From Streptomyces sp. NBC_00236 (GTDB taxonomy: Bacteria > Actinomycetota > Actinomycetes > Streptomycetales > Streptomycetaceae), in assembly GCF_036195045.1 (NCBI RefSeq), contig NZ_CP108100.1:434001-498000 (forward strand): a DNA stretch of 64,000 bases, written 5' to 3'. The position numbers were made by a program, and so were the translations under genes. Shown here one piece after another: positions 11,686 through 24,897 of the stretch; the stretch's first letter is position 1; each line of letters begins with the position of its first letter. The notes below the pieces were generated by a model that was given only the letters and a program-made list of their open reading frames with translations, made no database searches and had not been told where the DNA came from.

Positions 11686-12201
11686 GCTGAAGCGGCTGCG
11701 GTCGGGCTCGCACAAGAACTCCACCTACACCGCGTTCCGCGAGGTCGGCCGCGTGATCCGCACGGTGCAGCTGCTGCGCTACCTCTCGGATGCGCCGCTT
11801 CGGCGGCGGGTGACCGCGGCGACGAACAAGGTGGAGTCGTTCAACCGGTTCTCCCAGTGGGTCGGCTTCGGCAACCAGGGCGTCCTCGCCGACAACGACC
11901 CTATCGAGCAGGAGAAGACGATGAAGTTCAACGCCCTGCTCACAAACGCGGTGATCTTCCACAACGCCTGGATATCGCAGAGATCGTCCGCCAGCTCCTT
12001 CAGGAGGGATGGGAGATCGACCAGGAAGACCTGGCCCACATCTCGCCGTACCTGACCGAGCACATCAAACGGTTCGGCGAGTGCTCCACCCACGAACTCG
12101 GCATCCAGCCCGAGGCGTACCACCCACACCTCGACGTCGACTTCAGCCCGTTGCGCAGCGACGACCGGTCGGGTGCCGACGGCTACAGACAGGCAGCCTG
12201 A
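11686..12201 (+). pseudogene. Tn3-family transposase, 3' remnant with frameshift
   Basis: The translated stretch from about 11686 (LKRLRSGSHKNSTYTAF, then NKVESFNRFSQWVGFGNQG and TMKFNALLTNAVIFHNAW) is the conserved C-terminal part of Tn3-family TnpA. Near 11970 the match shifts frame and continues (DIAEIVRQLLQEGWEID to the stop at 12201). The first ~800 residues are absent, as are a resolvase and terminal repeats. This is a dead remnant that marks past transposition at the left edge of the accessory region. Its 3' end overlaps the end of the convergent MFS gene by 19 bp. Confidence 0.85.
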
Positions 12202-13403
12202 TCCCGCGCGAGCGTCGCGTTCCGTTCGCGGCCGTCGTCGGCGGTGCGGATCCAGGCAGGATGCAGGACCGCGAGGACTAGGCAGGCGGAGGCCATCGTG
12301 CCCCAGAGACCTGCCGCTCCGGCGTGCTCGAGCAGCTGTGTCCCGGCGAGTGGGGCGGCGATCCCGCCGATGCCCCAGCTTGTGCCATAGACCGCCAGGT
12401 ATCGGCCCTTTCCGCCGGCGGGGGCCAGGCGTGCGACGAATGCGTACGCGCGGCCCACGAGGAGCAGGTCGCCCACGCTCCATACGATGGTTGCCGCGAT
12501 GTAGATAACCAGGTCGTGAGCAAGCGCGTATCCGGCAAGGCCAAGGGCCAGCAGGAGATAGCCGCCGGCGAAGGCGGCAGGTTCCGGGAGTGTGGCGAGT
12601 CGATTGAGCCGCAGCAATGGCTGCCCGGCAGTGATGGTGAGGGCGGACGTGGTGAACAACAGTCCGGCGTCAGTCGGTTGCAGCCCGCGCAGTTCCAGGG
12701 CCAGTGGCAGCGCGATCATGATCTGGAGATAGACCACCCCGAACAGCGTCCCTGCCGCGAGCATCACGAGCAATGAGCGATCTCGCCAGGGGGCGACGGT
12801 GGTCGCCTGCTGGGTTGCCGCTGTCGTGGTGTGGTGATCCGCGGGCAGGACAAAATGCACGGTCAGCGCGCAGAGCAGGCAGGTAAGGGCATCGACCACG
12901 AAAAGCCACCGCAGGTCCCAGCGCCCCAACCCGGCTGCCAAAAGACCCGCACCCATGCCGGCTACGGCCAGGGCCGCGTTCAACAGGCCATAGGCACGGA
13001 CCTGTTCACCGGGCGCCACAACATCGGCGATCATCGCCTGGCTGGGCGGCTCGTAGATCTCGAAGGCCAACCCCATCAACACTGCGAAGCAGGCTGCCGA
13101 CACCAGGCCCTCGGACAAGGCGATGCCCAATTGCGCCACCGCGCACCCGGTCAGCCCGACCACGATCGTGCGGCGTCGACCGATACGGTCGGCCAGGCGA
13201 CCACCGGCCAGGCGCGAAGGAATCGTGGCCAGCCCGAAAGCGGCGCTGATGTACCCGGCGACGACGGTACTGGCACCGAAGCTCGTCGTGATCAGCACAG
13301 TGAGGAACGACAGGGAGAACGCCCCTAGCCGGTTCACCGCCCGCGCCACAATCAGCAGTCGCACCGTGCGTGGCAAATACTTTCCGCCCTGTGCAGGCCC
13401 CAT
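12183..13403 (-). CDS. MFS transporter, likely drug or metabolite exporter
   Basis: 406 residues with about twelve hydrophobic segments. The loop between helices 2 and 3 has the MFS signature GGRLADRIGRRR, and a motif-C-like Gly-rich helix (AVAGMGAGLLAAGLG) suggests a drug:H+ antiporter type. ATG 13403 has GAGAGGG about 5 nt upstream. The gene is divergent from the CGNR zinc-finger regulator at 13488, an arrangement in which the regulator often controls the pump. Its last codons overlap the Tn3 remnant, so its C-terminus may have been altered by that insertion. Confidence 0.87.
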   Translation of the reverse strand: MGPAQGGKYLPRTVRLLIVARAVNRLGAFSLSFLTVLITTSFGASTVVAGYISAAFGLATIPSRLAGGRLADRIGRRRTIVVGLTGCAVAQLGIALSEGLVSAACFAVLMGLAFEIYEPPSQAMIADVVAPGEQVRAYGLLNAALAVAGMGAGLLAAGLGRWDLRWLFVVDALTCLLCALTVHFVLPADHHTTTAATQQATTVAPWRDRSLLVMLAAGTLFGVVYLQIMIALPLALELRGLQPTDAGLLFTTSALTITAGQPLLRLNRLATLPEPAAFAGGYLLLALGLAGYALAHDLVIYIAATIVWSVGDLLLVGRAYAFVARLAPAGGKGRYLAVYGTSWGIGGIAAPLAGTQLLEHAGAAGLWGTMASACLVLAVLHPAWIRTADDGRERNATLARDQAACL

Positions 13404-13487
13404 GAAGCCCTCTCGTGCGTGACCGACGAAGCAGGTATCGTCGGTTGCGCATGCACGCTAGAGGTCCAAGGAGTAACCGGTCAAGTG

Positions 13488-14060
13488 ATGTTCGATGGTC
13501 ACGTTGTGACGCTGCTCGATGCGGCCGTCTCCCTCGTGAATACGCTGACCGACGGCACCCGACAGGGCCGCCCCTACACCGCCCCGCACGGGGAACAACT
13601 CCCGCAGGCGGTGCACGAAGCGCTACCGCTTTCGTCGCAACGTCCCACGGTCGAACCGGGTCACGCCGCCTATCTCGCGCACACCGCCCAGCAGATGCGG
13701 GCGGTGTTCGAGGCCGTCGACAGCGGCCACATCGATCAGGCGGCCCAGCTGGTAAACGTCCTGCTGGGCACCGCCGGCGCCCGCCCTCAGCTCGATCGCG
13801 TCGATGGCGAGCCCTGGCAAGTCCACTTCCACGGCTCCGAAGACAGCCTCGCCGTGGGATGGAGTGCCGGATGTGCCACCGCCCTGGCACTGGCGATCGG
13901 CAGCAACCTCGCCGGACGCCTCGGCGTCTGCACGGCCCCGCTCTGCGACCGCGTGTACGTGGACGCATCCCGTAACGCGGTCCGCCACTTCTGCTCCACC
14001 GCCTGCCGAAGCCGAGTCAAGGCAGCGGCCTTCCGGGCGCGCAAAGCGTCCCGGGGCTGA
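13488..14060 (+). CDS. CGNR zinc-finger (ABATE domain) transcriptional regulator
   Basis: 190 residues. The N-terminal ABATE-like domain starts FDGHVVTLLDAAVSLVNTL and the C-terminus has a CGNR-type zinc finger: CTAPLCDRVYVDASRN followed by HFCSTACRSRVKAAAFRAR, giving four Cys ligands. This is a DNA-binding family common in actinobacteria. The canonical CGNR tetrad is replaced here by CDRV. The start was set at ATG 13488 (AAGGAG at 13468, 14 nt upstream; GTG 13485 is adjacent); an upstream GTG at 13419 would add 23 unconserved residues. It probably regulates the divergent MFS gene. Confidence 0.82.
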   Translation: MFDGHVVTLLDAAVSLVNTLTDGTRQGRPYTAPHGEQLPQAVHEALPLSSQRPTVEPGHAAYLAHTAQQMRAVFEAVDSGHIDQAAQLVNVLLGTAGARPQLDRVDGEPWQVHFHGSEDSLAVGWSAGCATALALAIGSNLAGRLGVCTAPLCDRVYVDASRNAVRHFCSTACRSRVKAAAFRARKASRG

Positions 14061-14149
14061 GCATCTCCCGGCTCCGGCGCCGGGCTGGTCGACGTGCCTC
14101 CACGTGCGATGAGGCGCTCGAACTCCTGAAGAACGTGACGGAGCAGGGG

Positions 14150-15013
14150 GTGAACGACGTACAGAACTCCATCCCGCATCTACCGCCCGGAGGGAGCGGA
14201 GACGCTCTTCACCGCACGGAGCAGATCAAGGCGATGCATGCGGCGGTGAATCCGTACGACCAGTGGACGCTGGCGGCGACGAAGAAGCTGTTGGAGGTGT
14301 TCGCCGACAGGTCCATCCCGGCTCGGATGCGCGGCGAGCGCTACTCCAGCATCGTGTTCGGCGGCCACACGGCCGACCGCCTCTCGCAGCTGCTGAATCG
14401 TGAACTCAACGAGCTGCGAACGTACTTCATGGAGCTGGGCAACGAGCTGTACCGGCTGAAGGAGAAGTACGCCCACCACCAGGGCGGCCGGACCTTGGTC
14501 CTGGACACCAACGACCTGCTGCACTACTCCCGGTACGACAAGATCCCCTGGGCCGGCGTGTACGGGAAGAACGCCGTCGTCGTGATCCCCCACGTCGTCG
14601 TCGACGAGATCGACAAGAAGTCCTACGCGACCAGCGACTCCATCCGTAAGCGCGCCCGAGGCGTGTTCGGGCTGCTGGAGCAGACCCTCACCGATCAGCG
14701 TGACGGCCACGCGATGGCCGGCGGCGTGCGGGTCGAGGTGCTTCTCGACGAACCCCAGCACGTGAGGCTGCCGAACAACGACGACGAGATCGTGGCCCGT
14801 GCCTGCGAGCTCCAGCAGGCCGTCGGCCCGGTTCAGGTCACCGTGCTGACCGGAGACAACGGCATGCGGGCACGCGCGCTTGCGTGGGGCCTGAACGCCG
14901 ACAAGCTGCCGGCCAAGTACCGGATCGAACAGGTCAGCACCCGCGCCAGGGCCGAGTACCTGAAATCCATCACGGCGCTGGAAGAGCAACCATCAGCGCT
15001 CACTCCCGGCTGA
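14150..15013 (+). CDS. PIN-domain protein (putative ribonuclease)
   Basis: About 287 residues. The N-terminal ~110 residues are helical and unrecognised. A PIN fold follows: VLDTND with Asp119, HVVVDEIDKK, NDDEIVARACE and VLTGDNGMRARA supply the acidic cluster for Mg-dependent RNA cleavage. The arrangement resembles the PIN half of PhoH-type proteins, but no ATPase follows. GTG 14150 was chosen for GGAG 7 nt upstream; GTG 14135 is an alternative. No antitoxin-like small gene precedes it, so it is not an ordinary VapC. A 52-nt palindrome separates it from the CHAT gene. Confidence 0.8.
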   Translation: MNDVQNSIPHLPPGGSGDALHRTEQIKAMHAAVNPYDQWTLAATKKLLEVFADRSIPARMRGERYSSIVFGGHTADRLSQLLNRELNELRTYFMELGNELYRLKEKYAHHQGGRTLVLDTNDLLHYSRYDKIPWAGVYGKNAVVVIPHVVVDEIDKKSYATSDSIRKRARGVFGLLEQTLTDQRDGHAMAGGVRVEVLLDEPQHVRLPNNDDEIVARACELQQAVGPVQVTVLTGDNGMRARALAWGLNADKLPAKYRIEQVSTRARAEYLKSITALEEQPSALTPG

Positions 15014-15015
15014 CC

Positions 15016-15067
15016 GATGGCGCAGAGCGGGCCCGGACCGATCGGTCCGGGCCCGCTCTGCGCCATC
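15016..15067. terminator. Perfect 52-nt palindrome (terminator) after PIN gene
   Basis: Every base pairs: 26 nt on each side of the dyad at 15041/15042, beginning GATGGCGCAGAGCGGG and ending with its complement. It starts 2 nt after the PIN stop codon. It most likely ends that transcript, so the CHAT gene at 15148 probably has its own promoter. Confidence 0.75.
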
Positions 15068-15147
15068 AGCCGCCCGCCCCCGAGCACAGACCAGGACTGT
15101 CAGTGCTGCCGTCTACCTTGTCGGTAGATGTCACGAAGGGGTCGAGC

Positions 15148-16209
15148 ATGAACTCCAGCTACTACCAGAACCAGTTGGACCGGAAGAGGAACGAGCGCGC
15201 CACAGCCCTGAAGCGGGCGAGCGATCTGGGATCGAAGCAGGCGGACAAGCAGGGCAAGGCCGCGAAGAAGGCGGCGGCGGCCGGGAAGGCCGGCAGCCCC
15301 AACGTGGGGAAGAGCCGGCTGCGGACCGCCCAGCGCTACGAGAAGGAGGCCAACACCGCCGCGACCCAGGCCAGCACCTGGACGGCGAAGGCAGCCAAGC
15401 TCGAGAAGGAGATCGCCGTCCTGACCACGAAGCTGGCCAAGGCGCAGCAGGCGGAACGAGAAGCCCACGAAGCGGCGCGTCGCCGCGACGAGGACGAAGC
15501 ACGCCGGATCGCCGCCGCGCAGCAGCAGGGAATCGAGAGTCGCCTGTCGGCGGCAGAAGGCCAGGTAGATATCGTGATGAAGGAACTCCGCGCCCCGAAG
15601 CCGGAGAAGCTGCGGATCCTGCTGCTGGGCGCGTCGTCCGCCGGAGACCTGCGCGTCGGTCAGGAGCAGCAGCGGATCCGCGCAGCCGTGGAACGCGCCA
15701 CTCACCGCGACCTCGTGGAGTTGGATGCCCATCCGGCCGCGACCGCCGACGTGTTCCTGAACGCTTTGACCCGGTTCAAGCCGCACGTGGTGCACTTCTC
15801 CGGGCACAGCGGCCACGACCTGATCTCCTTTGAGAGGGGAGAGGACGACTTCCACGAAGAGGCCATCGTCAGCGCCGACGCCTTCGCCAGCGCCATCGCG
15901 GCGGTGGACGAGAAGCCGCTCCTGGTGCTGCTCAACTCCTGCCATTCCGCGACCCAGGCGCAGAAGCTGGTCGACACGGTGCCGTTCGCGATCGGCATGT
16001 CCGACTCCATCCAGGACACCGACGCCATCACCTACGCCGCACGCTTCTACGCGTCGGTGGCCGATGGCCAGTCCGTTCAGGGTGCGCACCTGCTCAGCAA
16101 GGCGGCCATCGCGCTCAACGGTCTCCCCGACGATGAGCTGCCCATCCTTGCGCACCCGGCCGACGTCGATCCGGGCACGACGAAGCTGGTGACTCCTCCG
16201 CCGGCCTGA
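15148..16209 (+). CDS. CHAT-domain (caspase-like peptidase) protein with N-terminal coiled coil
   Basis: 353 residues. Residues 1-150 are rich in Ala, Lys, Glu and Gln and predicted to form a long coiled coil. Residues ~155-340 are a CHAT-type caspase-like domain: LRILLLGASSA, then the catalytic His220 in VVHFSGHSG and Cys265 in LLNSCHSA. CHAT proteases act as effectors in several bacterial defence and death pathways, usually fused to sensor repeats; here the partner may be a coiled-coil ligand. Start ATG 15148 follows GAAGGGG. A strong hairpin ends the gene. Function is inferred only from the domain. Confidence 0.82.
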   Translation: MNSSYYQNQLDRKRNERATALKRASDLGSKQADKQGKAAKKAAAAGKAGSPNVGKSRLRTAQRYEKEANTAATQASTWTAKAAKLEKEIAVLTTKLAKAQQAEREAHEAARRRDEDEARRIAAAQQQGIESRLSAAEGQVDIVMKELRAPKPEKLRILLLGASSAGDLRVGQEQQRIRAAVERATHRDLVELDAHPAATADVFLNALTRFKPHVVHFSGHSGHDLISFERGEDDFHEEAIVSADAFASAIAAVDEKPLLVLLNSCHSATQAQKLVDTVPFAIGMSDSIQDTDAITYAARFYASVADGQSVQGAHLLSKAAIALNGLPDDELPILAHPADVDPGTTKLVTPPPA

Positions 16210-16236
16210 CCAACACGTACGGGGCGAGGGCGTTCG

Positions 16237-16295
16237 CCCTGTTCCGAGCGGGAGCCGGGGGCCACTCTCTGTCCCGGCTCCCGCTCGGAACAGGG
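16237..16295 (+). terminator. Hairpin terminator after CHAT gene
   Basis: A 23-bp perfect stem (16237-16259 with 16273-16295, arms starting CCCTGTTCCGAGCGGG) and a 13-nt loop lie 28 bp past the CHAT stop. The 193 bp that follow up to the Ohr gene show nothing clear. Confidence 0.75.
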
Positions 16296-16488
16296 CCAGC
16301 CACGTCGGCGTACAGGCAAACGTGCACAGTCAGGTACGCCCGAACGTACACAGGGGTCTCGGTGCGAAATGAGCTGGTCTCAAGACCAATAGGCGTTGCC
16401 CCGCGCCGTGGGGCAGGCGGGTAGGACGACGCCACCTGGATCGCGCACTCTGGCGGTTGCGGTCCAGATGGCGTTCAGCGAGCGGCGG

Positions 16489-16899
16489 TTACTCGGCGAG
16501 CAGCTCGACCGGGATGTTGCCGCGCGTGGCGTTGGAGTACGGGCAAACCTGGTGGGTGGCCTCGATGAGCGCGCGACCGACTTCTCGGGACAGGCTGTCC
16601 GGTAGCTTCGTCCGCAGGCTGACTTCGAGCTGGAAGCCGCCCTGCCCGTTGGGGACGAGGCCGACTTCGGCGGTGACCGACATGCCCGAGACGCTGATCT
16701 CCTTCTTCTGCGCCACCAGCTGCATGGAGGTGGCGAAACAGGCCGCGTAGCCCGCCGCGAAGAGCTGTTCGGGGTTGGTGCCGTCTCCGGTCCCGCCCAA
16801 CTCTTTCTGGAGGGCCATCTCGACGTCCAACTTGCCGTCCGAACTGACGGCGCGGCCGTCGCGGCCGGTCGCGGTCGCGACGGCGGTGTACAGGCTCAT
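16489..16899 (-). CDS. ohr: Organic hydroperoxide resistance protein (Ohr/OsmC family)
   Basis: 136 residues, the usual size for Ohr. The two redox cysteines are Cys54 (YAACFATS) and Cys119 (QVCPYSNATRGN), the latter context being diagnostic of Ohr rather than OsmC. The enzyme reduces organic peroxides by a dithiol mechanism. ATG 16899 has GAAGGG upstream. Unlike many ohr genes it is not beside a MarR-type OhrR; instead an AraC-type regulator is divergent, and a TetR-like palindrome lies just upstream. Confidence 0.93.
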   Translation of the reverse strand: MSLYTAVATATGRDGRAVSSDGKLDVEMALQKELGGTGDGTNPEQLFAAGYAACFATSMQLVAQKKEISVSGMSVTAEVGLVPNGQGGFQLEVSLRTKLPDSLSREVGRALIEATHQVCPYSNATRGNIPVELLAE

Positions 16900-16916
16900 G
16901 TGCTGCCCTTCTGGTA

Positions 16917-16928
16917 GACCGATCGGTC
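16917..16928. promoter_or_regulatory. Palindrome GACCGATCGGTC upstream of ohr
   Basis: A perfect 12-bp dyad 18 bp upstream of the ohr start. Its sequence is like operators of TetR-family repressors. No TetR gene is adjacent, so a trans-acting regulator or a relic of a former neighbour is possible. Confidence 0.45.
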
Positions 16929-17041
16929 AATCTGTCTGGCGCACTCAGCGTATGGAGGTCAGGTGCCGCTCTCCATGGCTCACCGTCTCCGTTTCATATC
17001 TGGTCGTCTTGCGTGTAGCGGCCTCGCGATACGATCTGACG

Positions 17042-18240: not shown

Positions 18241-19015
18241 CGGCCTCGCTACACGTCGGATATGACGGGCGCGGAGTGGGCCGCGGTGAGGACGATGCTG
18301 CCGGCCCCGGCTTGGATGGACGGCCGGGGAGGCAGGCCGGAGGGCTACTGCCACCGGCAGATGGTCGACGCGGTGCGGTATCTGGTCGACAACGGGATCA
18401 AGTGGCGGGCGATGCCGGCGGACCTCCCGCCCTGGGACCGGGTCTACGCGTGGCCCATCAGCATGCGGCAGGCGCTCGCCGCGACGGGCAGGCCCAGAAC
18501 CAACCGCCGGGCGCCACCCGCACTGAGCCCGACGACCACGGGCTGGGCCGGTCGCGGGGCGGTTTCACCACCAAGATTCATCTGGCCTGCGAACAGGGCC
18601 AGCGGCCACTGTCTGTGCTGGTCACCGCAGGCCAACGCGGGGACAGCCCTCAGTTCGCCGCCGTGCTGGAAGGCATCCGGGTTCCCCGCACCGGACCCGG
18701 CCTCCCCGTGTCCGCCCGTTGCGAGTGCGAGGCGACAAAGCGTACTCCTCCCGTGCCAACCGGGCCTACCTGCGAAAGCACGGAATCCCGTGCACGATCC
18801 CCGAAGCGGCCGACCAGGTCGCCAACCGCAAGCGGCGAGGAAAGACCGGCGGGCGACCTCCGGCCTTCGACCGCGAGGACTACAAGGCCCACCACGCGGT
18901 CGAGTGCGGAATCAACCGGCTCAAGCGCAACCGCGCGGTCGCCACCAGGTTCGACAAACTCGCCGTCCGCTTCGAGGCCACCGTCCTGATCGCCGCGATC
19001 TGCGAATGGTTGTGA
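18241..19015 (+). pseudogene. IS5-family transposase, scrambled pseudogene
   Basis: Transposase sequence is present in three frames. 18241-18450 encodes the N-terminal domain (MTGAEWAAVRTMLPAP, DAVRYLVDNGIKWRAMPADL). From about 18545 another frame gives [20 protein letters not shown]. From 18719 a third frame gives [16 protein letters not shown] and the C-terminal [20 protein letters not shown] to the stop at 19015. At least one segment between the first and second parts is missing. The element cannot encode an active enzyme. No inverted repeats were found. The 284 bp before it (17957-18240) hold no gene. Confidence 0.85.
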
Positions 19016-19087
19016 CCGGCCAGGGCTGTCGGTTCCCCATGCCATGCTGACCGCGACCAGGGCGAACAAAGCGAGGGAGAAACGACG

Positions 19088-19400
19088 ATGGGGGCTCAGT
19101 ACTACGGCGCCGACAGCGAGAACGGCGACCGCATCGACGACCCCTCCGAGGACGCGCTGTTCATGATGATCAGCGACCTCAACGACTCCGACAACACCTT
19201 CGTGGTCGTCCAGCCCGACGAGGAGCCCCCGCCTGGTTCGCCTCAGTGGCCGTCCTGGACGAAGGCGACTACGAGATCGTCCGCCGCGACACCATCCGCA
19301 ACGAGCACGAGGTCACAACGGCGACCAGCATCAACGACATCTCCCGCGACCTCGCCTTCTGGATGGCTGGCCGCAACTTCCCCGGACGGCCGCGGGAGCC
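19088..19400 (+). pseudogene. Immunity-like (Imm1-type) gene, frameshifted and truncated
   Basis: The ATG at 19088 opens an acidic protein (DDPSEDALFMMISDLN, TFVVVQPDEE). Near 19221-19226 the sensible frame changes and continues as SVAVLDEGDYEIVRRDTI and SINDISRDLAFWMAGR. After about 19390 the coding pattern ends where a pirin fragment on the other strand begins. Size and composition resemble Imm1-type immunity proteins that protect against polymorphic toxins, but the match is by eye. A one-base loss and a downstream rearrangement have broken the gene. Confidence 0.55.
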
Positions 19401-19478
19401 CTCCGCCCAAGCCTGGCGGGCCTCCTCGATTTCCTCCTGGGAACGCCCGATGAAGTTCCACCACCACTTCATCCGCAT
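19390..19478 (-). pseudogene. Pirin C-terminal fragment (copy 1)
   Basis: The minus strand encodes MKWWWNFIGRSQEEIEEARQ followed by AWAEGS, the conserved start of the pirin C-terminal cupin tail. Stops lie just upstream, and the downstream part runs into antisense of the immunity-like pseudogene, so only about 27 residues survive. A second, longer pirin fragment lies at 25681. Confidence 0.7.
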
Positions 19479-19512
19479 CTATTTCCGCAGGTCAGAGGCA
19501 TTCGAGTCCATC

Positions 19513-19536
19513 AAAGTCAGCAAAAGTCAGCATCGG
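19513..19536. repeat. Tandem GTCAGCA heptamers, array A
   Basis: AAAGTCAGCAAAAGTCAGCA: two GTCAGCA copies with a 10-bp period. The same doublet occurs at 25502 and twice at 26219-26306. They lie near the two pirin fragments. Possibly arm-type integrase binding sites left from an integrated element. Confidence 0.6.
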
Positions 19537-19879
19537 AGCACCTCCGGGCAGTCCGACTCGCCGGAAATTGCCAGCTGCTCCCAAGCACGCCGATCGGCGT
19601 CACACCTCGAACTGAGCCGCCGCGACGGGACATCTCTCACGTGTCTGCTGCGACCCAAAGATGAGGATGGTCAGCCCGGCTCACCGAACCGATAGCCGGT
19701 GGCCCACTCGACGCGCCCCGAAGTGATCTCAAGACTGTCGCGACAGCTCCGACACCGCTTCCCAACAGACCGTGAAGGAATCCATGACCGGCGGTGGCGT
19801 ACGACCGAGCCAGTAGAGCGCCTCACGAAGGGCTGACAACCCTCTACCCAGAGTGATCGAGTCCTGCAAAACTGGCGCG

Positions 19880-21895
19880 ATGAGACGTGTGCACCTGGAA
19901 GCGGCCGAAGATCATGTCGAGCGCCTGGCGAGAGAGCACGATCCCGTGGGAGCCGTGAAGGAGCTCATTTGGAACGCGCTGGACGCGGACGCCATCAAGG
20001 TCACGGTGGCCATTGAGCGGTCGGCCACCGGTGCGGTGGACAAGGTCATGATTACGGACGACGGGGAGGGCATCACTCCTGAGGGGTGCACGACCGCTTT
20101 CGAGAGAATCGGTGGTTCGTGGAAGAAGCACAGCCACACGACGGTCGGCGGACGCCCCCTGCACGGCCGTGCGGGTCAAGGCCGTCTGCGTGCGTTCGCA
20201 CTCGGCGCCTTCATCAGGTGGACCACCGTCGCCAAGGGAATTGACGGCCTGCGCAAGACAACGGTGACGGCGCACAACGCCTCGCGCAACGACTTCCAGA
20301 TCGGCGACTCCACGCCCGCAGGAGAGCCCACGGGAACGCTGGTCGAGGCTTGGGGTCGGCAGTCGGTGGTTCTGGACCGCCTTACCGCCGATCGCGCACG
20401 GAGTCTGCTGACGACGGAGTTCGCTCCCTACCTGGCCAGGTATCCCAAGGTCGAGATCGTCTTCGATGGGGAGAAGATCGACCCCACTGCGGTCATCCAA
20501 GCGCAGTCCGAGGAGCGCGTCGAATTCGAGCACGACGGTGCTATGGAGACCGCTGTCGTCCGGATCATCGAGTGGGACATGCGGGTGGATCGCGAGCTCC
20601 ACCTGTGCGATGCCCTCGGCGTCCCCATCGATATCACGGAAACCAGGATCCAGGCGCCCGGCTTCGATTTCACCACCTACGTCCTCTGGGACCGGATGAC
20701 GGAACACCGGGGCGACTTCCTGCTGGGCGAAGCGTCCGACGGCCCGGTGGCATCCCTTCTGGCCGCCACGCGGGAACATCTGAGGTCGCACTTTCGGAAG
20801 CGGGCCGTGGAGCGCCGCAAGGAGGTGGTCGACCAGTGGAAGGACGCCGGCCTCTACCCGTACCGTGCCGAGCCAACCAGCGAGGCCGAGAAGGTCGAGC
20901 GGGAGACGTTCGACATCGTGGCGTCTACCATTCATCGCCACATGCCTCGGCCAGCGAAGCATCAAAAGGCCACGCTCGCCCTGCTGCGCGAATCGGTCAA
21001 GCACCAGCCAAGCAACGTGAACCGAATCCTCGACGAGGTCTTCCGACTCACGAGCGACGACAAGTCGGAGCTCGATCGCCTCCTGAATCGTACAAGCCTG
21101 TCGAGCATCATCAGAGCGTCCACGAGCGTCGCGGACCGGTTGGATTTCCTCGCGGCCCTCTCCCACATGGTCTTCGATCCGGAGGTCAAGAAGCTCGTCA
21201 AGGAGCGGTCGCAGCTCCACAAGATCCTTGAGAACGAGACGTGGGTGTTCGGCGAGCACTACCAGCTGCTCGTGAGCGATCGCTCCCTCAACCGTGTGCT
21301 CGATCGCCACCTCGGCCTCATCGGGCGGGACAACCGGAGCCCTCAGCCCGTGTACCGGGATGACGGGTCGGTGGGGATCGTCGACCTCATGCTGTCGAGA
21401 TCCAGGCGCGAGCACGACCGACAGCAGCATCTGGTAGTGGAGTTGAAGGCGCCCAAGGTCAAAGTGGGTGACAAAGAGCTCCAGCAGATCAAAAGTTACG
21501 CGCTCGCCGTGGTCGAGGACGCCCAATTCGCGGACGTCCGGGCCGAGTGGGACTTCTGGCTCGTCACTTCAGAGATGAGCAAGGTCCTGAGAGCGGAAGC
21601 CAGGCAGGCGGGAAGGCCCCGCGGGTGCATCTGGGATCTGAAGGAGAACGAATACACCGTCCGCGTCTGGGTCAAGACGTGGTCAGAGGTGATCGACGAA
21701 AGCAAGGGCCGCCTGCAGTACTTCAAGGAGCACTTCGACCATGACCCGTCGGTGGAGCAGGCAATCGACTACCTGCGTCACTCCCACCTTCCGTACCTTC
21801 CAGATGCTCTTATTCCAGCTCCGCGTGAAGGGCAGACAGGCGACACCGGAGCCGGCGTCTCGGGGTCGACGGACGCAGCAGCGGATCTGGTGTGA
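19880..21895 (+). CDS. GHKL ATPase fused to PD-(D/E)XK nuclease-like domain
   Basis: 671 residues. The N-terminal ~230 residues are a GHKL (Hsp90/MutL/histidine-kinase type) ATPase: N box ELIWNALDADA (Asn32), then TDDGEGI (Asp61, Gly62, Gly64) and a Gly-rich lid GGRPLHGRAGQGRLRAFALG. A helical middle region follows. The C-terminal ~200 residues carry a restriction-like core: Asp502 in GIVDLML, Glu521 and Lys523 in VVELKAPK, and QQIKSYA, with WVFGEHYQLL upstream, as in DUF4263/Shedu-like nucleases. ATG 19880 fits the family N-terminus; GTG 19853 is possible. It stands alone within decayed mobile DNA. A DNA-targeting defence role is inferred. Confidence 0.82.
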   Translation: MRRVHLEAAEDHVERLAREHDPVGAVKELIWNALDADAIKVTVAIERSATGAVDKVMITDDGEGITPEGCTTAFERIGGSWKKHSHTTVGGRPLHGRAGQGRLRAFALGAFIRWTTVAKGIDGLRKTTVTAHNASRNDFQIGDSTPAGEPTGTLVEAWGRQSVVLDRLTADRARSLLTTEFAPYLARYPKVEIVFDGEKIDPTAVIQAQSEERVEFEHDGAMETAVVRIIEWDMRVDRELHLCDALGVPIDITETRIQAPGFDFTTYVLWDRMTEHRGDFLLGEASDGPVASLLAATREHLRSHFRKRAVERRKEVVDQWKDAGLYPYRAEPTSEAEKVERETFDIVASTIHRHMPRPAKHQKATLALLRESVKHQPSNVNRILDEVFRLTSDDKSELDRLLNRTSLSSIIRASTSVADRLDFLAALSHMVFDPEVKKLVKERSQLHKILENETWVFGEHYQLLVSDRSLNRVLDRHLGLIGRDNRSPQPVYRDDGSVGIVDLMLSRSRREHDRQQHLVVELKAPKVKVGDKELQQIKSYALAVVEDAQFADVRAEWDFWLVTSEMSKVLRAEARQAGRPRGCIWDLKENEYTVRVWVKTWSEVIDESKGRLQYFKEHFDHDPSVEQAIDYLRHSHLPYLPDALIPAPREGQTGDTGAGVSGSTDAAADLV

Positions 21896-22008: not shown

Positions 22009-22404
22009 CTATCCTCGGCGGTCCGTGGCTGGGTCGGGCGGGCCCATGAAGGCGTCAAGCTCTTCGATGATCTTGCGGAGTTCGCGGGCTCCGCGAGGCG
22101 ACATTGCTCGGATCACGCCGTCGATTAGGGCACGGCTTTCGACTGGGTTGCCGCAGCAGTACCAGTGCACGTTGCCGAACTCGTCGTCGTGCCAGAGCTC
22201 GCGTTCGGGGCGGTGGACGTAGTCCCTCCACAGGCGCAATGCCGCGCTGGTATCTCCCGGCTGGAGGTAGTTCCGCGTGCGTTCAAGGCGGACGATCTCA
22301 GACAGTGCTCGCGGGGAGAGGCGGTCGATGGCCAGGCTTGAATGCTGTGGTTGCTGCCGGTCCGGGACTTCGGCCCGGATGCGTCCTGGCCGTCTACGCG
22401 GCAT
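22009..22404 (-). CDS. Hypothetical protein, conserved-looking
   Basis: 131 residues, no family recognised. The middle reads like a folded soluble domain (SLAIDRLSPRALSEIVRLER, LRLWRDYVHRPERELW, FGNVHWYCCGNPVESRALI) with a Cys pair in HWYCCGN and a helical tail ARELRKIIEELDAFMG. ATG 22404 has AAAGG 5 nt upstream. It follows the GHKL-nuclease gene tail to tail (113 bp gap) and precedes a probable broken gene. Codon use is typical of the genome. Confidence 0.6.
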   Translation of the reverse strand: MPRRRPGRIRAEVPDRQQPQHSSLAIDRLSPRALSEIVRLERTRNYLQPGDTSAALRLWRDYVHRPERELWHDDEFGNVHWYCCGNPVESRALIDGVIRAMSPRGARELRKIIEELDAFMGPPDPATDRRG

Positions 22405-22795: not shown

Positions 22796-23731
22796 TCACC
22801 CCACTTGTTTGTCGTCGTCCACTTCGAAGAGTGGGCTCAGGGGAGCGTCAAGAGCGAAGGTCGCAACCTCTAGAAGTTCCGTGACGTCGAGGCCCGACGC
22901 GCTTATCTCCTCTGGCCCATTCAGCTCAAGTTGGCACCAGGAGCAGTGAAGAGAGCTGAGGGCCAGAGCGGCATCCGTGGCAGTGGCAGTCGGATCCGGC
23001 GCGACCATCACCGTTGCTGTACCTCGGCACCCTGGGCAGCCCGCAGTTCCAATCACGGTCACGATCTCCGGGTCCGCGTCAGGAGCGGTCGTATCGAGGT
23101 AGAAGGAGAAACTGGATCCGCTTCCGAGGATCTTCGCCTTGGACTGCGTGGCTCCCGGCCACCCCTTGAACCGGTCCTCGAAGAGATGCCGAGCCTGTCG
23201 GATGCGTAGCTGGACGTCTCGCTCGACGGTGCTCCGTTGTCTGTCGACGGCTGCATTCACGGCACTGGCCCAGCGGCCCCAGAAGGCGTCCACCGGCTTT
23301 CCGAGGTGCTGCAACATCGTCTCGATGTTCTGAGCAAGGGACGGCAACAGTACTTTGGCCTCGTCCCCCACAGTCGAGTGGGCAGTACCGTTTCGCAGCT
23401 CGATCAATTGGTCGAGGTCTTGGTCCACCCCAAGTACGCCAAGGCGCCGAACCCGCTTGACGGCGTCGAGGGCGCCCACCGTCCGGACCTTCTTGCTTTC
23501 GAGTTCCAAGTGGCCACCGAGGTACAGCAGCATGTCCGAGCTGGCGTTGCGAGTCTCAAGAAGGTAGGTGGGGTGTTTTGAGACCAAGACGGCCTTGGCG
23601 AGCCGCTCGGCAGCGACTCCACCATGGAGGGCGAACTCGTCGTACTCTCGGCGCCCATGGTCTTCCATGGCTCGGTGGGCGGCCTTCACCGCGCCCCTGT
23701 AGAAACTCTCGAATGAGAGCGAATCGTCCAT
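22796..23731 (-). CDS. HEPN-like protein with C-terminal zinc ribbon, function unknown
   Basis: 311 residues. Residues ~10-125 form an all-helical domain containing LHGGVAAERLAKAVLVSK and ELRNGTAHS, where Arg113 and His118 make an Rx4H motif as in HEPN ribonucleases. Residues ~150-190 are a charged helical linker. The C-terminus has two CxxC knuckles, Cys232/Cys235 (GCPGCRGT) and Cys263/Cys266 (HCSWCQLE), likely a zinc ribbon. The HEPN call is from helices plus the motif and was not checked by profile search. It lies on the minus strand in the accessory region, between a broken gene and an IS. Confidence 0.7.
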   Translation of the reverse strand: MDDSLSFESFYRGAVKAAHRAMEDHGRREYDEFALHGGVAAERLAKAVLVSKHPTYLLETRNASSDMLLYLGGHLELESKKVRTVGALDAVKRVRRLGVLGVDQDLDQLIELRNGTAHSTVGDEAKVLLPSLAQNIETMLQHLGKPVDAFWGRWASAVNAAVDRQRSTVERDVQLRIRQARHLFEDRFKGWPGATQSKAKILGSGSSFSFYLDTTAPDADPEIVTVIGTAGCPGCRGTATVMVAPDPTATATDAALALSSLHCSWCQLELNGPEEISASGLDVTELLEVATFALDAPLSPLFEVDDDKQVG

Positions 23732-24053
23732 GTCAGGACGGTAACCGCCGCTGTAGTACTGGGCGACCGATTCCGGAGATCGAGGAACCGGACTGCCAGA
23801 GCTACTCGGTCAGCGGCCGGCCCCCTTGCCCGAGTGGGACGGCCAAGGCGCTAAAGTCCTTGGGCGTCTTCAATGCTCGAGGACACAAGGAGAACGTCTC
23901 CTGGGCAGGCCACAACGGCTCTACGTAGCAGGAGCAAGCGCCTGACGTAGCTGGGCCGCAGCCACGCTCATCGGGGAGCGCCCGGGGCTAAGGGTTGTCC
24001 CGTAAATGATCTTCTGGTCGCCTCAGGCATGGTTGGCCGCTGTGCCTGCTGCC

Positions 24054-24821
24054 TTATCCCGCAAGTGCGAGGTTGTGCATGCGGGCGATGCCGAGCATGG
24101 CGTGATGGACGCCGTCGCCTTTGAGACGGCAGTCGCGAAGGATCTTCCAGGTCTTCATGCGGGCGAAGACGTGCTCGACGCGGGCGCGGACCTGCTTGTG
24201 AGACTTGTTGTGCGCCTGCTTCCACTCGGGCAGTTCTTCGCCTTTGCGGCGGCGGTGGGGCATGACAAGTCCGGTGCCCGGGTAGCCGCCGTCGGCGATC
24301 GTCATGGTTCTGCCGACGGCGGCTTTGGCGCCGGAATCCTCCCATGCCTTGCAGTCGTTGCGGTTCCCGGCAAGCGGCCGGCCGACCACGACGATCAGTC
24401 GGGTGTCGGCGTTGATGACGACCTGGTGGTTGGTGGAGTACCTGTAGTTCTTGGACTGCGCGGCAATCGCGTGGTCCCGGGTGGGGACCAGGGTGCCGTC
24501 CACGATGAGCACGGCGTCCTTGGCGAACCGCTTGCAGGGCTGGAGCGCGAGCATCGGCCCGAGGTGGCCGATGATCCGGTCCGCGGCCGACTTGGACACC
24601 CCGAACAGCGGGGCAAGCTGCCGCATGGTCAGGTTCGTGCGCCAGTAGGCCGCGACCAATAGGGCCCGGTCCTCCAACGGCAGACTCCACGGTCGGCCCC
24701 TGCGGACTGCGTCCGCACCCTCGCGCCGCAGAACCGTCACCAACTTCCCGAACTGGCGCGGGCTCAGCCCGGTGAACGGGACTATCCAGGACGGCTCCGA
24801 CGCCGTGATCACACCAGCCAC
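24054..24821 (-). CDS. IS5-family DDE transposase
   Basis: 255 residues. An N-terminal helix-turn-helix (TMRQLAPLFGVSKSAADRI) is followed by a DDE_Tnp_4-type catalytic core: Asp in LIVDGTLVP, Asp in IADGGYPG and Glu in RARVEHVFARMK. The gene starts with GTG 24821 and ends 63 bp inside the left end of the element. It appears intact, unlike the other transposases of the window, so the IS could be recent. It cuts and rejoins DNA at the terminal repeats described for the element. Confidence 0.9.
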   Translation of the reverse strand: MAGVITASEPSWIVPFTGLSPRQFGKLVTVLRREGADAVRRGRPWSLPLEDRALLVAAYWRTNLTMRQLAPLFGVSKSAADRIIGHLGPMLALQPCKRFAKDAVLIVDGTLVPTRDHAIAAQSKNYRYSTNHQVVINADTRLIVVVGRPLAGNRNDCKAWEDSGAKAAVGRTMTIADGGYPGTGLVMPHRRRKGEELPEWKQAHNKSHKQVRARVEHVFARMKTWKILRDCRLKGDGVHHAMLGIARMHNLALAG

Positions 24822-24897
24822 TACGTGATCGTTTCACCCGATGAGAAGCGACCACCGTCCCGTACCCTCTCGGCCTGAGTCGGTCCAGAATGTCGCC

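Follow-up and report, generated by a model that had tools for sequence, protein, structure and literature searches.

The gene at positions 19880-21895 of the stretch analysed here (the window, 64,000 nucleotides of the genome of Streptomyces sp. NBC_00236) encodes a protein in which a MORC-like ATPase-transducer module is joined to a nuclease domain of the PD-(D/E)XK superfamily that is related to those of Shedu proteins. We consider it probable that this protein works on its own as an ATP-gated DNA nuclease and shields its host, or the mobile element on which it is carried, from phage or plasmid DNA. Defence is the best-supported reading because VcSduA, a Vibrio cholerae protein built in the same way, protects against phages only when both its activities are intact (PMC12137116). 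The architecture is already known, as paraMORC3 from 2008 and as Shedu type I-D from 2025, and has been tested in a distant relative; the window gene is a separate branch of this known kind of defence protein.

Translation of the open reading frame gives the single 671-residue protein that a first-pass annotation, made from the letters of the window, had described as an Hsp90/MutL-type ATPase with an intact N box and DxGxG motif followed by a restriction-like core of Asp502 and Glu521-x-Lys523. Both halves of that description are borne out. Pfam HATPase_c_3 matches residues 24-135 (E = 6.1e-16), and E28, N32, D35 and D60-x-G62-x-G64 are present, as is an ATP lid of the form HGxxGxGR; the N box, DxGxG motif, lid and ATP-binding fold together place the protein in the GHKL ATPase superfamily. 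The transducer domain, for which we use the name S5 from PMC2292703, follows the ATPase, and structural alignments of the model with MORC3 and TRAP1 extend to residue 312. The model of the C-terminal domain (predicted local distance difference test, pLDDT, 93.9; predicted template modelling score, pTM, 0.90) contains the core fold of the PD-(D/E)XK superfamily, with D502 and E521-x-K523 at the places proposed earlier, and fold and profile matches agree with this assignment. Pfam HSDR_N_2 also matches weakly over residues 501-543 (E = 0.0034). We favour the ATG start, at which the consensus of the relatives begins; an in-frame GTG at 19853 would lengthen the protein by nine residues. The ATPase and transducer fold is shared with MutL and MORC, and MutL profiles match too, but the window protein differs from both in carrying a PD-(D/E)XK nuclease after this module. 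In its place MutL has its C-terminal region and MORC its CW region.

A protein search returned 576 homologues at E ≤ 1e-3, and 118 of the 120 listed cover at least 90% of the query, so the domain architecture is not a product of chance. The nearest relatives are 74-94% identical, and the closest named ones among the matches listed come from Streptomyces. In an alignment of 116 proteins (121 fetched, five dropped for length), E28, N32, D35, D60, G62, D502, E521, K523 and Q536 are invariant. Conservation was likewise scored at 109 of 124 contig loci, with four partial viral loci left out and 11 skipped for stop codons within the match, which draft sequence errors may explain. All ten tested residues are kept at 107 of these loci; at the remaining two the N-terminus is absent from the match and the four nuclease residues are kept. 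Comparison with a broken relative in another genome of the same genus (271 codons, gapped ones excluded) gives a nonsynonymous divergence (dN) of 0.018 against a synonymous divergence (dS) of 0.178, which points to purifying selection on the protein.

This conservation bears on whether the domain cuts DNA at all. In Streptomyces, HATPase proteins made of a single domain act as regulators of antibiotic genes (PMC9137472), and the window protein might similarly be a signalling or regulatory GHKL ATPase whose C-terminal domain, as a relic, binds DNA but does not cut it. Loss of the nuclease residues would then be expected, and here the four are invariant in 116/116 proteins and 109/109 loci, which makes a non-cutting regulator highly improbable. 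The regulator SspH is moreover only 142 residues long and consists of the HATPase domain without a further domain (PMC9137472), and identity with an SspH-type regulator was set aside. In the passages covered, the only mention of HATPase in the DefensePredictor paper is in a figure legend, and the GHKL proteins treated in the jumbo-phage paper are of the topoisomerase and rIIA types.

The first-pass annotation had also likened the C-terminal core to DUF4263 (Shedu-like) nucleases, a likeness that holds at the level of profiles and fails at the level of family models. A profile of the C-terminal domain aligned with actinobacterial DUF4263 domains (20 of 21 loci, one with a stop codon being omitted) over 146 columns with E = 1.6e-7, compared with 0.05 for reversed profiles and 1.8e-5 over 84 columns for a small HSDR_N_2 control set (7 of 8 loci). 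In a version built from 27 family members, the alignment took in the C-terminal strand-helix and the E-x-K motif as well as the region preceding the core. At the sequence level, this comparison supports homology of the domain to SduA-type nuclease domains. Two results temper the defence reading at this point: Pfam SduA_C (DUF4263, PF14082) does not match the window protein even at E ≤ 5, and in a fold comparison of the nuclease domain model Shedu tied with EndoMS and FokI. By the Pfam family cut-off the protein is therefore not Shedu, and its link to DUF4263, which comes through profile-profile and fold comparison, is remote. We read the Pfam silence as 'not called' rather than 'unrelated' because the profile-profile comparison links the domains. 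When the C-terminal domains of 66 relatives were searched with Pfam (E ≤ 0.1), HSDR_N_2 matched 61, PDDEXK_9 11, SduA_C five and Mrr_cat five; the SduA_C matches are weak (best E = 0.0023). Pfam found no DUF4263 domain in the host genome, which is weak evidence since the control genomes were silent too. The fold tie with EndoMS and the MutL profile matches also touch a different proposal, in which the protein is a nuclease of DNA repair or DNA structure, a fused analogue of MutL plus EndoMS/NucS spread by mobile elements. We regard this as very unlikely.

Several described systems share the architecture. VcSduA, from VSP-II of the WASA lineage of V. cholerae, combines GHKL and DUF4263 domains and is active against T1-like phages; E27A or K557A abolishes defence, which was seen at all multiplicities tested, and the authors model an entwined dimer, assign the protein to Shedu type I-D and note its likeness to paraMORC3 (PMC12137116). 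Like VcSduA, the window gene encodes in one frame an N-terminal GHKL ATPase with motifs I-IV, a clamp-like middle and a C-terminal PD-(D/E)XK domain. A recognised DUF4263 is reported for VcSduA (PMC12137116); the window protein is not called by the Pfam model of that family. The spacing between the two mutated residues is 530 in VcSduA, compared with 493-507 in the window branch (108 of 241 proteins caught by a simple pattern), so VcSduA probably lies outside this branch, judged by spacing rather than by direct sequence comparison. In the Shedu type I-D class (2025; Gu et al. 2025, as described in PMC12137116) an N-terminal GHKL ATPase and a Shedu-type nuclease occupy one protein, and the window protein agrees with it on architecture only. 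The classical SduA proteins of Bacillus cereus (8ti8/8ti9) and Escherichia coli (8ps4/8ps5) are chains of about 400 residues with other N-terminal regions, where the window protein has its GHKL ATPase.

The paraMORC3 group of Iyer, Abhiman and Aravind (2008) was defined by GHKL and S5 domains and a C-terminal restriction endonuclease (RE) fold with E-D-ExK (PMC2292703), a description that fits the window protein; the GhXhhpXXRhl motif in the S5 domain is given there for the MORC family proper. Some paraMORC3 members are solitary, without conserved neighbours. The group was described as prevalent in proteobacteria and bacteroidetes (PMC2292703), whereas the window branch is actinobacterial. Identical domain order is also found in the BbrUII/HgiDII restriction enzymes (NCBIfam NF050001; PADLOC REase_II). 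Profiles of the two whole families match over 545 columns (E = 5e-15), the GHKL part at E = 4.5e-17 and the nuclease part at E = 6.6e-9, but the middles do not match (E = 0.38). Since the two ends match and the middles do not, the window family is, on profile evidence, a separate branch of the same architecture. In the BbrUII/HgiDII set the residue spacing is 512-527 (105 of 120 proteins), and PF14082 is carried by two of the 120 family members listed.

The family models of NCBIfam and PADLOC reach only the ATPase. The leading NCBIfam matches to the window protein are BbrUII/HgiDII enzymes (1.2e-12) and MutL (3.2e-10), both confined to the GHKL part; against NF050001 it scores 47.2 bits, over residues 26-121 only, compared with a cut-off of 550, and a weak PADLOC REase_II match is likewise confined to the GHKL part. 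Neither Pfam SduA_C, NCBIfam nor PADLOC 2023 made a full-length call on the window protein, nor did NCBIfam on the relatives P0017, P0124 and L022 or PADLOC 2023 on P0017 and P0124. Surveys resting on these models would tend to overlook the family.

We conjecture that the protein acts as a dimer whose GHKL N-gate would shut when ATP binds, holding DNA in a clamp. Once closed, the clamp would permit cutting by the C-terminal nuclease only where the DNA shows a feature typical of invaders (ends or replication structures, for example), and ATP hydrolysis would reset the clamp. Because cutting would be licensed only on such a feature, a protecting methylase would be dispensable. The one-protein, ATP-gated anti-phage or anti-plasmid role suggested in the first-pass annotation is thus the best-supported reading by analogy with VcSduA, tempered by the remoteness of DUF4263 membership and by an architecture that was already known. 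Its confirmation would bring actinobacteria, and a large family, within the GHKL form of Shedu defence. The protein would then also offer a simple single-gene setting in which to study how an ATP clamp of the MORC/MutL type activates a nuclease, and how a nuclease that stands alone, with no methylase, leaves the chromosome of its host uncut.

Genomic neighbours bear on whether the protein works alone. Pfam scans of ten nearby reading frames found no methylase near the gene, and tblastn with seven proteins from restriction neighbourhoods found no match within the window; within this scope, the cognate methyltransferase that would lie near a type II restriction-modification (R-M) enzyme is not found, and the earlier description of the gene as alone in its island without a methylase stands as far as tested. 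Same-strand neighbours within 50 bp are rare among relatives (6/107 upstream, 5/111 downstream; distances from a rough in-house gene caller that left the target uncalled at 4/122 loci). No conserved operon partner stands beside most copies in 17 annotated plasmid and phage neighbourhoods, for which the plasmid gene tables are incomplete. A minority of neighbours recur in these 17: an RHE_PE00001 family gene in two rhizobial records, VapBC pairs or VapC in three and DEAD/DEAH helicases in three. In a Psychrobacter plasmid Drt2 and a type II R-M pair adjoin the homologue, and in a Bradyrhizobium plasmid an abortive-infection gene lies by it. Several annotated neighbourhoods contain no defence genes by name, which counts against an association with defence genes.

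Some copies do sit beside ATP-dependent R-M genes. In a Phaeobacter plasmid (L022, 3055-9968) a type ISP gene overlaps the homologue by 4 bp, in the order opposite to that of Streptomyces loci L060 and L068 (about 12000-17040). There a type ISP frame lies downstream of the homologue on the same strand, its earliest start 12 and 23 bp past the stop, respectively, and its match beginning at about 156 and 107 bp. HsdR and a YgjP-like peptidase occur in the 10-kb flanks of 8 of 80 genome loci, and HsdR, then a YgjP-like metallopeptidase, with the homologue downstream, is the order at L220, L222 and L224 and at genome loci L052, L056, L062, L064, L065 and L069. By tblastn, HsdR and HsdM lie within 6 kb at 3 of 12 loci of the same genus (one of them the query source), compared with none of 24 control stretches from the same genomes, about 145-300 kb from the loci; a YgjP-like match occurs in two of the 24. 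In a PADLOC tally that is only partly usable as a comparison, type I R-M models lead among neighbours (105 proteins; best 25 of 84 families), and PD-T4-6 and others lead among controls (122 proteins; best 25 of 41 families), with no R-M model among those 25.

The type ISP and HsdR arrangements, together with the placement of MORC and paraMORC proteins mostly in R-M operons by Iyer et al. 2008 (PMC2292703), would suit an accessory nuclease of ATP-dependent R-M, in which the GHKL clamp would work together with a translocase of type I or type ISP, encoded nearby or elsewhere, and help to cut unmodified DNA. The rarity of close neighbours and the lack of a common gene beside most of the 17 copies or of any in the window scans argue against it, and the HsdR loci look alike and may descend from one ancestor, hence may not be independent. 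We consider this role unlikely. A combined scheme strikes us as quite unlikely: a distinct GHKL-gated nuclease branch, unnamed in the catalogues tried, would act as a self-sensing defence clamp where it is solitary; in lineages where it adjoins type ISP or type I restriction genes, it would add an ATP-gated nuclease subunit to them, cutting when pushed along or struck by a restriction translocase.

The family is patchy across chromosomes, plasmids and phages and is often mobile. Within the genus it was found in 17 of 199 sampled genomes at E ≤ 1e-20 (own genome included) and in 23 of 392 at E ≤ 1e-100 (one broken copy included). It also occurs in 46 plasmid records, two Pasteurella phages, 44 viral contigs and genomes of many phyla (345 loci found, 80 kept). 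In Pasteurella phage Pmp14 (L021, 8001-9959) the homologue lies within the tail module, between tail assembly and tape-measure genes. One genome of the same genus, G137, holds two copies about 21 kb apart on contig C1 (7887783-7889711 and 7909256-7911184), of equal score and identity, and a third elsewhere.

Table 1. Features of the gene, its product and its surroundings, in window coordinates.
Feature	Position	Strand	Basis
IS5-family element, upstream; transposase frame interrupted	18452..19391	+	85-89% to IS5 family transposase records; two DDE pieces
Upstream stretch common to the broken relative in another same-genus genome	19452..19879		374/428 aligned positions identical
GHKL-PD-(D/E)XK nuclease gene, 671 residues	19880..21895	+	open reading frame, ATG to stop
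GHKL ATPase core, residues 8-187	19901..20440	+	boundaries from structure model
N box E28, N32, D35 (residues 28-38)	19961..19993	+	all three in 116/116 homologues
D60-x-G62-x-G64 motif	20057..20071	+	D60, G62 in 116/116; G64 in 114/116
ATP lid motif GRPLHGRAGQGRLR, residues 91-104	20150..20191	+	R92, G96, G99, G101, R102 in 116/116
S5-like transducer domain and long C-terminal helix, residues 190-325	20447..20854	+	approximate boundaries; model secondary structure
Helical middle region, residues 326-440	20855..21199	+	model; no detectable match to BbrUII/HgiDII middle (E 0.38)
PD-(D/E)XK nuclease domain, residues 442-640	21203..21799	+	domain model with fold and profile matches
D502, putative metal ligand	21383..21385	+	116/116 homologues
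E521-L522-K523, putative catalytic motif	21440..21448	+	116/116; aligns with Shedu E-x-K motif
Q536, on helix after E-x-K	21485..21487	+	116/116 homologues
Two hypothetical frames between nuclease gene and downstream transposase	22799-23731 and 22009-22404	-	no Pfam or PADLOC match
DDE transposase element, downstream; probably IS5-like	23988..24840	-	annotated transposase match; DDE_Tnp_1, DDE_Tnp_4, HTH_Tnp_4

In the window, the gene and two hypothetical frames are flanked by two transposase elements (~18.45-19.39 kb and ~23.99-24.84 kb), and the guanine-plus-cytosine content of the gene-bearing stretch is somewhat below that of the flanks. In the second genome of the genus, over 19.8 kb compared, only window positions 19452-20698 matched, comprising the stretch upstream of the gene and a truncated copy with small indels. 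This fits a moving and decaying unit, and the upstream stretch may hold the gene's promoter and move along with it. The GHKL-nuclease family may also decay often, judging from its sequences. Stop codons fall within the match at 11 of 120 contig loci, and in a Paracoccus yeei plasmid (L215, 8995-11886) the homologue runs into an IS3 transposase. Elsewhere in the window (14135-16209), a PIN-domain gene precedes one that carries a CHAT-domain annotation in a Streptomyces anulatus plasmid, to which the window is 97.3% identical over the two genes. The CHAT-annotated gene matches the PADLOC candidate PDC-S66 over part of its length (3.2e-9), and the two genes are possibly a small defence or effector pair.
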